From positions 2,666,001 through 2,730,000 of the forward strand of contig NC_089443.1 in NCBI RefSeq assembly GCF_026210795.1: a DNA stretch of 64,000 nucleotides, given 5' to 3'. The translations under genes and the position numbers were made by a program. Source of the DNA: Rhizophagus irregularis. Lineage: Eukaryota; Glomeromycota; Glomeromycetes; Glomerales; Glomeraceae. The notes below the pieces were generated by a model. The model did not search any database and was not told the origin of the DNA. It was given only the letters and a program-made list of their open reading frames with translations. Every line of letters starts with the position of its first letter. Position 1 is the first letter of the stretch. This document shows, piece by piece, positions 16,977 to 32,515 of the stretch.

Positions 16977-17403
16977 CTTCTACTGAGCATAGTGGACATC
17001 CCTATTTTATCACAATTTTGCCGATCATTTGCCGATCATTTGTTGATCACTATTTTATCATATCACATTTAATATTAGATTTTTTTTAAAGTTAATCTCA
17101 GTTATCTCAGCATCCAGTGATCAGAATTTTATGATTTTTAGCTTGTTAGAAAGCTTAGGACTTGATGAATCCGATCATCTTTATTTTACAAAATTTGGAG
17201 TTATATATCTTGAGATATTTGCATTCGGAATCTTCTAATTATTTTATTATATAATTTATCTTATTAGTTGGAGTAATTATACAAATTATACAATTATAAT
17301 TCATTAATTTTCATTAATCAAAATAAAATATTAATTTTTATTATTAAAAAATTTCAATAAAGTGACTTTTGCAATTTAATAAAAATTATTATATTAATAC
17401 TAA

Positions 17404-20400
17404 TTATATATCATTATAATTTAACCATTGTTGATACATTATATCATATTGATTTTCTACATCACATTCTGTTCTTTCTAATATGTTTTCAATATTCTCT
17501 TCTTCATCATTTTCATCATCATTATTATTTTCCTTTTCAAATAAAGGGATTTCATTTTCTTTTAATGAATGTCGACAATCTTTGATCCAAACTCTTAATA
17601 TTTTTCACCCTGCAATAATGATAAATAATCAAAACAAAAATTACATTTATCATCATATAAAGTACTTAAACATTCTTTATGAAAACTGTGTCCACAAAGT
17701 AAAACAATTCCATTAGATAAATCTATACTATTTGATAATAAACAATTATTTGCATCACAAAATTTATCATCTGCTGGTATTTTTTGTGTATTCCAGCCTA
17801 AAGGAAGTACCTTTACATCCACTTCAATATCAAAACTTGGAAGATAAAATTTTGGATATCTATCATTATTAATTTGTTTTGTATTTCCTATATTCTGATG
17901 AATCTTATCAAATATTGAGAATAAAAATAATGAAACCTTTTTTTCTAAAGATTTTAATTCTTTAATTTGAGACTTAGCTGGATTTCTCAAATTAACAAAA
18001 GAATTTTTAAAAGGATTATTATTTCTTTCAGCATCAATAATTTTTGCTTTTTGTATAATTTGTAACTCTGAATTCGATTCTGCTGTTTGATGCCTTAAAG
18101 AGTTATGAAAATTTTCAACAAAATAATCATTAAAAATTGGTAAATTATTTTTTAAAATATTAATTATTGGATGATTTTTTGAAGTCCAATAAAATACATC
18201 ACTTAAAAACATAAGTGGTGCTTTATTATAATTATGTCTTCTCAATCTTTGAACTAATATCCAAATTTTTACAGTACTTTCTAAATATCCTTCAAAAAAT
18301 CCACTTCTAAAAAGTATTGCATATATATCCAAAGTAAGTGGAATAGAATTATCTAATAAATCTATCATCATTTGATATTCTGCATCTTTTAAATTTCCAA
18401 ATCTTTTTGTAACAATATCACGAATATTTTTCCATCCATGATAAGTTAAATGTAAAATAAGATTGATTACTGTTTGTTTTAGTTTTTGAGATAATATTTT
18501 TTTATCTCCAAATAAGTTATGATATAGCATCTCAAAAAAGAAATGATATGTTTTAAATAGTATTTCTCTGCTGTTTAAAGAGACATGAAGTGGACCTATC
18601 ATAGGAATTAAATTTAACACTTGCTCTAGAACTCCAGAATTAATGCCTTTCTTAATTCTAAGTGTTATAGCTCTTCTTATATTTACTTGTCCTGGCCAAT
18701 CAGCAATTACAGGAATGATAAAATTATTTAAATAATTTTCTTCAATATTTTCTAATCTTTCAAATGCTTTAAATACATAATCTAAACATTCAATATAATC
18801 CTTAAGTACTATGTAAAGGATGCAAAATAAAGTCTACTAATTTGCTATTAGACATTGATCTTAATTCATGGTAATTTTGAATTCTACCATCATAATTATG
18901 AATATTAAGTAGTTCAACTCTATTTTCATAAGAATCTTCAATTAAAAAATTTTTCCATAATTCTTTTTACATATAATAACTTTTACCTAATTGATTCATA
19001 AAATTATTTTTAATGTTATTAATAATTAATCCAGGATCAATTCCTTTAGGATTATGTATTGAAAAATTATTTAATGAATAAAATGGTATTTTTGGAATTT
19101 TAGTATTTGTATTCAATAATATTGTTACAAAATGATAAATATTGTGAGTTTGTAACAATGTTGGTTGATTACGCCTATGAATATTATGGTAATCATCTAT
19201 ATTAAGAATAAACATATTTTCTATATTTTGTAAACAATAATTATCTACAGTTTGTTGGTGTTCATTTGAAATAAAATTTTTTTTACGATTTACTGTTTTT
19301 CTTGTTACTGAAACTCCTATATTTGCCAATGTATCAATAGAAGAAGAAGAAGCTCCAGAAGTTTCCAAGTATGATCCAATATCAACTTTAATTCCATTAA
19401 TATATTTATTATTAATGCTAGCTAAAAAATAACATAAAGAAACTAATTTTTTTTTGTTGTTATTATTTGTTGTTTCAGATTTAGTATTAGGATTAGTTCC
19501 AACATATAATTCATCAAAAAATCCAATTAAATCTTTATCAGCTGTTTCTAACATAGTTTTAAAAGCTATTGGATCATAAATAGGTTTAAGATTTAATCTA
19601 TGTTGATTATTATAAAGAATATTAGACATTTTTATTATTTTACTACTTAATTTAATTTCACTTGAAATTTTTAATTGTGTCATAATTTCTTGATAATCTG
19701 ATTCAAATTGTTGTAATTCTTCTCCAGTATATAAGATATCTTTTCTAAATAAATAAGTATAATTTCCTATTTTTGATATATTGTCATTATTATTTTTTCT
19801 AGAAATTGGTGCTTTATATTCTTCAGTTTGTAAATATTGAGAATCTTTATCAGTTTTTTTTTTACACATACTGCAAATCATTGCAAGTTCATCTAATTCT
19901 AATACTTTAATTAATCTTGTTGGAACTTTTTGAAGACTAAATTGTTTGCTTGTATTTTTTGATTGATTTAAGTATTCATCATGTTTTGGATGTTGACAAG
20001 TTTTTATTTGTTTAGTTTCTATTGATTCATTTTGTATAACTTCTATTGATTCATTTTGTATAACTTCTATTGATTCATCTTGTATAGCCTCTATTAGTTC
20101 ATCTTGTATAGTTTCTATTGATTCATCTTGTAAATTATCATTATCATTTAAATTGTTTTTTTTAATTGGAATAGGTGCTTTGTATTTTTCATTTTGTAAA
20201 TATTCAGAATCTTTATCAGTTTTATTTCTACACATACTACAAATTTCTGAAGATTCATTTAATTCTAAAACTTCAATTAATCTTTTTGGAACCTTTTTAA
20301 GATTAAGTTTGCTTGATTTTTTTTTTGTATTTTTTGATTGATTTTTATATTCATCATGTTTTGGATGCTCACAACTCTTATTATAATTAATATTTCTAGT

Positions 20401-20571
20401 TTCATTTAAAATAAATTGATTGTAATGTATTTGGCATAAATACATTCCAACTGAAATAATTAATTTAGTAGATTTTGGTATTTTAGTGTTATAAGTGATT
20501 GGCTTTATTCTTCCATTACATTCAATGGAATCAAAATTGCAAATATTTGAAAAAGTAGAAGTGTTATCCAT
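17404..20571 (-). pseudogene. Broken glomeromycotan RING-finger family gene, candidate transposase
   Basis: The frame starts at 20571 and is open for 534 codons. It contains two tandem Cys/His modules (CEHPKHDEY...CSMC at residues 67-114 and CQHPKHDEY...CSMC at 192-236) joined by five QDESIE-type repeats. Then follows a core with NIDDYHNIH, GPLHVSLN and VENFHNSLRHQT, and a C-terminal RING-like finger (CDANNC...CGHSFHKEC...CNFC). I recognise this as a large Rhizophagus family with no assigned function. The acidic and His-rich core words could form a DDE/RNase H-type active site, which is inference. Three lesions: a TAA stop at about 18967, a frameshift near 18812, and a one-base frameshift near 17605 in an A-run, after which the C-terminus continues in another frame to 17404. 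Alternatively the first break could be spliced out. Length without breaks is about 1,050 codons. Confidence 0.75.
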
Positions 20572-20801
20572 TTTTTATAATTAAAAATTATGAAAGTATT
20601 TAAAAAAATATTGTTTTTTTATTTTAGATTTTCTAATTTTGCTAAAGCAATTTTTTTGTCTATTTATAAAAAAACTGATTAAATATAACACATAGAAAAC
20701 TTTTAAAATAATTAATTTTATCTTATATTTTTAAAATAGTAAACAAAAATAAATTTTAGAAAATATATAAAGTTTTAAAATCAAATAATCATATATTACT
20801 T

Positions 20802-21145
20802 AAAATTGACTAAATATAACATATAAGTAAGTTTTGGTTTCAAGCGAATTAGGATGCCATTTTTTTACCATATATTTCTAAATGGTTAACAAATATATAA
20901 TGAAAATTTCAAAGTTGGCTTAAAAGTCTGTGGCTTTGTACAAAACTTTGAAGTCTAAAAATTGCAAATTTATTAAAATTGACTAAATATAGTATATAGG
21001 TAACTTTTGGTTTCAAGCGAATTAGGATGCCATTTTTTCACCATATATTTCTAAATGGTTAACAAATATATGATGAAAATTTCAGAGTTGGCTTAAAAGT
21101 CTGTGCTTTGTACAAAGTTTTAAAGTCTAAAAATAGTAAATTTCC
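20802..21145. repeat. Tandem duplication, about 175 bp x 2
   Basis: Two consecutive copies start at AAAATTGACTAAATATA (20801 and 20976). Each contains GGTTTCAAGCGAATTAGGAT and TTTCTAAATGGTTAACAAAT. It lies in the non-coding right half of the 16986-21548 transposon, upstream of its gene, so it could be part of the promoter. Confidence 0.8.
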
Positions 21146-21557
21146 TAATTAAATACTAAAAATTTATATATAAAATTAATAAATATCAATTTTAGTAATG
21201 AAAAAGGTTTATTATTTTATTCTATATCGTTAAAAAACTTAAATTTATCAATTTTTATAGCCCGGCCGAATGTATATCGGTGTAGCCAAGGCTGCCAAGC
21301 CAGATCGGCCGATTTTATATAATGTGATAATTCATAATAGAAATACAAAATCGTGAATATCTTGGCATATAGTGATCCAAAATTAATGAAAATACCACCA
21401 TTTGACTCGTCTCGATGAGGCGAATCCAATGAGCACAACTTTATCAAAATTGGATGACTGAATTTCGAGATATTGTTTATTGAAGTTTGAAAAATATATA
21501 TGATCAGCAAAATGATCGGCATGGTGATATAAGCATGTCCGCTATGCTCTTCTACTG

Positions 21558-31904: not shown

Positions 31905-32515
31905 AGCATAGCGAACATGCTTTTATCACTTTGCCGATCATTCATCGATATTATGTCACATTAATTTTGAAGCTATGGTTAAAGCCATAAATTCTTAGCC
32001 AAACTATACTAACTAATGTCTTTTTAGTAGTATAATTTATGAAAAATAAAAAAAATTATATTGTTAAAGTTAACCTTAAACTGAAATTTTCAATAATTTG
32101 ATATTTGCCTATATTTGCTGATCATCTGCTAATTTGACTTTGGAGCTTCGGGCGAAGCCACAGATTTACGGGCGAAACTTGAAATTTTCAAAATATATTA
32201 TTTAGGTATTCAAGAATCAATAGCCAAAATAATCATGTAGAATTTTAGGTAATCAAAAAGTTATCATTGAGCAAATGTTTATGAATATTATTAAAATACA
32301 CATATAGACAAAATTTGTAAAACTTTATTAACTGTTTAAAGAATTTTTTTTGATAAATTTAATATGCAGTAAATTTAAATGAATGTTAAATTGTCTGTAA
32401 AATTATTATTATGTAGGATTTTCAACCAAAGTAATTATAACGAAGTGATAAAATTGAATAAATGATCGACAAATGATCAACAAAATTGTGATAAAGTAAA
32501 GATGTCCGCTATGCT
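31905..32515. mobile_element. 611-bp non-autonomous relative of the 16986-21548 transposon
   Basis: TIRs AGCATAGCGAACATGC and, as reverse complement from the right, AGCATAGCGGACATCTT, followed inward by TTTATCAC and GCCGATCAT/GTTGATCATTTG words as in the large element. The flanking 9-mers ACAGACAAA (31896-31904) and ACAGACAGA (32516-32524) match at 8 of 9 positions, an old 9-bp target duplication. No coding capacity. The right end is 148 bp upstream of the gamma-tubulin complex start codon, so it may overlap the promoter. Confidence 0.85.

Follow-up and report, generated by a model that had tools for sequence, protein, structure and literature searches.

The window, by which is meant the whole 64,000-nucleotide stretch of Rhizophagus irregularis DNA analysed here, contains a DNA transposon of 4563 bp at 16986-21548, with inverted ends reading AGCATAG(T/C)GGACAT and one long gene between them for a protein with a C-terminal RING-type finger (Table 1). 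A preliminary description made from the letters alone had reported inverted ends with a perfect 9-bp direct repeat outside both, and these were recovered where it had placed them; the presence of a transposon with terminal inverted repeats (TIRs) over this interval is confirmed. The outer 14 bp of the right end, AGCATAGCGGACAT, are the partner of AGCATAGTGGACAT at the left and the pairing becomes weaker out to ~50 bp. The single long gene of that description is also real, but in this copy it is a pseudogene, broken by a TAA near 18967 (a Q in intact copies) and by one-base insertions near 18805, 17616 and 17569. The interval is best read as a gene-disabled copy of an autonomous cut-and-paste transposon whose transposase is the RING-tailed protein, a reading to which we assign a probability of about 0.87.

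Table 1. Coordinates of the transposon, its gene and related features in the window
Feature	Position	Strand	Remarks
Left copy of 9-bp target site duplication	16977-16985		CTTCTACTG
Left TIR	16986-17036	+	outer 14 bp AGCATAGTGGACAT (16986-16999), imperfect to ~50 bp
Putative transposase gene	17407-20571	-	pseudogene in the window copy
C-terminal RING-type finger	17634-17759	-	candidate ligands C938, C943, C959, H961, H964, C967, C976, C979 (numbering of L001)
VENFH	18105-18119	-	putative third catalytic acid, E819
GPLHVSLN	18573-18596	-	putative counterpart of CxxH (H662, N666), without an acid
IADWPGQ	18687-18707	-	putative second catalytic acid, D624
NIDDYHNIH	19177-19203	-	putative first catalytic acid, D459/D460
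N-terminal C2CH-like Cys/His cluster	20425-20541	-	C11, C18, C46, H49 (numbering of L001); sequence pattern, placed via tblastn offsets
Two subterminal direct repeats	20766-21105		167 nt each, 88% identical, 173 bp start to start
Right TIR	21498-21548	-	terminus ATGTCCGCTATGCT (21535-21548)
Right copy of 9-bp target site duplication	21549-21557		again CTTCTACTG
Non-autonomous copy (miniature inverted-repeat transposable element, MITE)	31905-32515		611 bp, ends as in the long element; flanks ACAGACAAA / ACAGACAGA, 8/9

Copies of the element and their target sites

When up to two mismatches are allowed, the 14-bp terminus is matched four times in the window against 0.21 expected, and none of 100 shuffles gave as many; two of the four matches are the ends of the short non-autonomous copy of Table 1. 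A search of the 146.7-Mb assembly (32 contigs) with the terminus AGCATAGYGGACAT found 183 exact matches, 93 and 90 by strand, with none for the reversed control. Among the 100 places listed of these 183 there were 26 adjacent facing pairs of 608-1203 bp, the first 20 of which were sampled as short copies, and nine pairs of 4.5-6.6 kb; a tenth long pair, 81 kb apart, is no element. The short copies share ~40-90 bp at their ends with the long ones, and short pieces of the 167-nt subterminal repeats recur within some of the non-autonomous copies. At the DNA level, full copies at five loci (L001-L004 and L006) share 99.85-99.93% identity, and the window copy shares 99.49-99.56% with these five when gaps are disregarded. 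The family looks like a set of recently active jumping elements.

Two large copies, L009 and L010, have the same ends with the gene absent and no open reading frame (ORF) of 100 amino acids. The 4.66-kb L009 (on G000:C2) holds ~11 copies of a 130-bp unit at L009:2206-3604, which resembles a short exon flanked by splice sites and is perhaps a captured repeat gene, and L010 (G000:C1:6825539-6832177) extends over 6.6 kb between both ends, with a perfect duplication. The preliminary description had allowed that the same ends might be found around an unrelated autonomous transposase, and no such element was seen.

Target site duplications were counted at 41 loci by comparing the two ends, L005 (one end lost), L035, L036, L037, L039 and L041 being excluded. 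A perfect 9-bp duplication was present in 34 of the 41, all 34 of them different, and in 38 of 41 the two copies differed at one position at most. At the gene-less loci (L009-L030 and the short window copy, none with a protein match) a duplication with no more than one mismatch was found in 23 of 23 cases and a perfect one in 20. Gene-bearing loci numbered 24 (the window element, L001-L008, L031-L043, L046 and L047), with TIRs at both ends in 19, at one end in three and none found in two. Both TIRs together with a duplication of at most one mismatch were found at 16 of these 24 loci and both TIRs only at three, so that most of the fetched loci with the gene do not lack shared TIRs, the lack of which the preliminary description had named as a possible refutation. 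A caveat that must be applied to these counts is that loci L001-L030 were picked by terminus or protein, that L046 and L047 were picked by terminus pattern at known protein-match places and that the search for the ends of L031-L034, L038, L039 and L042 rewarded duplications, so that these loci do not provide a blind test.

Movement is shown most directly at one member, L034, the only one covered by the empty-site comparison. With a single copy of the duplication placed between them, its two flanks matched two paralogous places without gaps over 400 of 400 bases, at 98.5% (C5:3739807-3740206) and 95% (C7:1628914-1629313), and three further places matched at 68-75%. The two close empty sites read GTGCCATAG and the filled site reads GTGCCATAT. 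L034 interrupts a repeat that has uninterrupted paralogues; the host frame is read from its sequence as a gene of a long interspersed nuclear element (LINE).

The gene family and its co-variation with the ends

An intact intronless ORF of 1054 amino acids is present in L001, L002 and L006, while for L003 and L004 no gapless single-piece read-through was obtained by tblastn; an open frame of at least 900 amino acids was found at seven loci. The RING gene is the only ORF of 100 amino acids or more in L001. A search with the C-terminal ORF of the window gene gave at least 105 genome matches, which when merged at 2.5 kb define ~68 places, a lower bound obtained with one query.

The ends vary with the gene. 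Relatives 68-76% identical to the window C-terminal ORF (L031-L034) have the variant ends AGCATAGCGAACAT, a variant of AGCATAGCGAACAT, or AACAGGGCGGACAT. The last of these has 137 exact matches genome-wide, with none for the control, mostly arranged in ~0.6-kb pairs, and the two ~3.8-kb pairs among the 100 places listed both contain the family gene. A subfamily at 46-52% identity has the terminus AGCATAGGGAAAGTTT, for which there were nine exact genome matches against one for the control, and all nine lie within ~3.5 kb of family genes; at L046 and L047, which were fetched by this pattern, the duplications agree at 9/9 and 8/9 positions. L040 and L039 have yet other ends of the AGCAT type, again beside perfect 9-bp duplications. 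Members down to ~40-50% identity thus bear their own versions of the ends.

That the RING family consists of ordinary host genes, with a chance match of TIRs around the window member, would accord with the very large size that the preliminary description gives the family and with the RING being a common host domain. This explanation is so improbable that it can scarcely be entertained, given that AGCATAGGGAAAGTTT adjoins family members in nine of nine matches, that 34 different perfect 9-bp duplications were found among 41 loci and that the empty site of L034 is gapless.

A more serious alternative is that the element has captured the RING gene as a passenger and is itself moved in trans by the transposases of the Mutator-like elements (MULEs) of the genome. 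MULE domains are indeed abundant (150 matches scored of 407 first-look candidates), the published duplications of MULE groups are 8-11 bp in the part of PMC6446971 that describes them, and L009 and L010 are large copies with the same ends and no gene. However, the RING gene is the sole long ORF of L001, and the gene stays with the diverging ends across subfamilies that are ~40-50% identical in protein. It is also under purifying selection: the ratio of nonsynonymous to synonymous substitution (dN/dS) was 0.25-0.45 by NG86 in all six pairs of four ORFs (L001, L033, L034 and L043) and 0.13 by YN00 in one ORF pair. None of the 150 listed MULE places fell inside the fetched family loci, the remaining 257 candidates being unscored. 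A passenger gene is accordingly judged quite unlikely. Because passengers would not be expected to diverge together with the ends, the protein is very probably the transposase, and the earlier proposal that the RING-tailed gene encodes the transposase of a TIR element making 9-bp duplications is strongly supported by these co-varying ends, by the near-identical copies and by the single ORF of L001. A transposon family of this kind explains an orphan RING gene family of ~68 places, as a lower bound, and accounts for two or more sets of short copies, the termini concerned having 183 and 137 exact matches.

Outside the R. irregularis assembly an intact relative of 920 amino acids, 69% identical in the best segment, was found on a soil contig (L043, VBAS01000141.1) between AACAGGGCGGACAT ends, with both TIRs. 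The contig is filed under a soil Bacteroidetes metagenome-assembled genome; it is likely to be fungal contamination, and its source is probably a related fungus.

Two further observations concern the structure of family members. At L039:1663-8136 the transposase gene occurs twice in tandem between a single pair of AGCAT-type ends, which are flanked by a perfect 9-bp duplication. In L037, L038 and L046, of the ~50% subfamily, the coding pieces lie in different and partly overlapping frames, whereas L001 is intronless, and this subfamily may have introns.

The protein and its putative catalytic core

The N-terminus of the protein is C2CH-like, a long middle part follows, and at the C-terminus is a RING-type finger for which eight ligands can be proposed. 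The N-terminal cluster had no Pfam match and is probably a DNA-binding finger, to judge from its pattern of residues. The spacing recalls that of THAP, an assignment that was rejected when no Pfam THAP match was obtained for any of five pieces.

Three acidic motifs, DDYHx(I/L)H, (A/C)D(W/F)PGQ and VENxHS, were matched in 20, 22 and 21 of 23 loci, respectively. These counts use fixed patterns, which cannot show substitutions, and the invariance of the acids rests on an alignment of nine members; the third pattern misses the window copy because it reads VENFHN, in which the E is still there. The conserved acids suggest a DDE core of D459/D460, D624 and E819. A possible alternative for the third acid is E669 in LN(S/T)RE, which is invariant in nine of nine aligned members, and E819 was ranked above it because its neighbourhood resembles that of a MULE, a likeness noticed after the fact. 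The preliminary description had proposed that NIDDYHNIH and GPLHVSLN belong to such a core: the former fits the first acid, whereas the latter has no acid and the second is best placed in ADWPGQ.

In the mechanism that we infer from these features, the N-terminal Cys/His fingers of the transposase would probably bind the ~50-bp inverted ends, the putative DDE core, with an RNase H-like fold, would cut the element out, and joining to the target with a 9-bp stagger would produce the 9-bp duplications. The same protein would move the many non-autonomous copies of ~0.6-1.2 kb in trans. The RING finger would most likely serve in assembly or in contact with a host factor, although this role is a guess.

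Several results weigh against the RING protein as a transposase that moves its own element. Both TIRs are present and the 9-bp duplication is absent at L002, L008 and L043, one end only is present at L005, L037 and L041, and the ends of L035 and L036 were looked for and not found. The gene-less L009 and L010 belong here too, although such copies are as expected for non-autonomous elements, and an unseen second gene acting in trans may move the element. Pfam scans of family members, run with the HMMER filters, which drop most matches above E 0.1, gave no transposase match; there were sub-threshold RING matches and weak stray ones. HEPN_RiboL-PSP appeared below threshold in two of nine members, at best with 9.3e-5 and 22.8 bits against a cut-off of 28.4, and was judged a chance match on account of its score and its occurrence in two of the nine. 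AlphaFold2 gave a mean predicted local distance difference test score (pLDDT) of 29.7 for the whole L043 protein and of 36.0 for a segment of it that starts upstream of the first acid and ends beyond GPLH; each input alignment consisted of the L043 sequence and two window pieces, and the low values are probably due to so shallow an alignment. A core profile compared with hAT, MULE and Kyakuja-Dileera-Zisupton (KDZ) transposases of the same genome, the last represented by one sequence, gave nothing above the reversed controls, and the hAT-MULE positive control was silent too.

Nothing among Protein Data Bank (PDB) sequences matched the window C-terminal ORF, and the 12 that matched the nine-member family profile did so at E 0.45 or worse and are by name RING-type ubiquitin-ligase proteins, with no transposase match in either search. 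NCBIfam gave two weak and unrelated matches, and 32 pattern matches in viral contigs included no relative. An alignment of the family with the hAT core was inspected and rejected as spurious. The family has 99.9%-identical copies and no Pfam transposase match.

Relation to known transposons

The closest likeness is to MULEs, which share with the family long duplications, TIRs, zinc fingers in the transposase, one ORF and non-autonomous copies, and whose 8-11 bp range includes the 9-bp duplication of the family. Rehavkus, which is placed within the MULE superfamily in the relevant passage of PMC13359780, has according to the description in PMC6446971 9-bp duplications, one ORF, a PHD finger and a minisatellite before its 3' TIR. 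The one gene of the window element ends in a zinc-finger-like tail, which gives weak RING matches, and near one end of the element there are only two 167-nt subterminal repeats; the comparison with Rehavkus is with its published description. Another comparison is offered by the aphid Ghost MULE, for which PMC6446971 reports an ORF with a RING zinc finger beside the transposase ORF; there the RING ORF is separate and short and no TIR or duplication was reported as found, whereas in the present family the transposase-like protein itself terminates in the RING and the element has clear ends.

A remote position within MULE, or within the outgroup Rehavkus, is a distinct possibility for the family, if short of an even chance; this is a question of filing and is compatible with a RING-tailed transposase. 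Besides the 9-bp duplications, a likeness to MULEs of this genome is seen around the third acid, where VENFHSSLR resembles RVESINGVIK of one of them, and in GPLHVSLN, which retains the H-x3-N of CxxHxxxN, both likenesses having been noticed after the fact. Against this, the CxxH that lies between the second and third acids of MULEs is altered, with glycine (G659) in place of the cysteine in nine of nine aligned members and the His and Asn kept. The spacing of the first two acids is 164 residues, compared with ~60 in one genome MULE, and the family has a RING-type finger at its C-terminus. The MULE domain PF10551 was absent from Pfam scans of the nine aligned members (E<=5) and of L043 (E<=10), with HMMER filters on, while the same model does detect MULEs elsewhere in this genome; profile alignment found no match either, a method that its positive control showed to be powerless.

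DUF6589 proteins have a G-L-F-H-x2-M-N-like motif after an acid. The domain (PF20231) was absent from Pfam scans of family members, and a genome search for it was also empty, its controls being silent too. KDZ transposases are large, have cysteine-rich parts and occur in fungi. The KDZ domain PF18758 was absent from the member scans, and none of its 23 genome places lay in the fetched family loci. Duplications also differ, those of Zisupton being 8 bp and those of hAT 5-8 bp as given in PMC12730594, compared with 9 bp in the family.

The family is best filed, then, as an apparently undescribed lineage of TIR transposons, MULE-like in action and a possible remote relative of MULEs. An undescribed lineage had already been suspected in the preliminary description; this is likely but not proved, Repbase and eukaryotic sequence databases having been outside the comparison, and priority is not established. 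A literature search of titles and abstract openings found no such element described. Unclassified repeats make up 32% of the R. irregularis genome, or 24% without repeated genes, in the figures of PMC8647823 that bear on this, and ~30% in those of PMC11075540, where, in one strain, the classified fraction rose from 12% to 36% on curation. The main text of PMC11075540, on R. irregularis transposons, contains neither 'RING' nor 'target site', and that of PMC8647823, on the same subject, contains none of 'RING', 'MITE', 'TIR' and 'target site'; the element may sit in the repeat libraries of these papers under another name.

The stronger claim, that this is an undescribed eukaryotic DDE transposase superfamily with a C2CH-type N-terminus, a built-in RING tail, 9-bp duplications and considerably more than 100 short dependants, has in our view roughly even odds. 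Such a superfamily is so far known from the R. irregularis genome and one soil contig, and its RING could attach ubiquitin either to the transposase or to a host factor involved in silencing. If it is real, a large orphan RING family would acquire a function, and part of the unclassified Rhizophagus repeats a source. Since copies with intact frames exist, transposase biochemistry and mobility are directly testable, in a fungus long thought to be asexual.

A minor observation concerns the surroundings of one member. At L041:5464-7001 a hAT-type transposase, as read from the sequence, lies directly downstream of a family gene, and a query made from part of it gave 137 genome matches, split pieces included.

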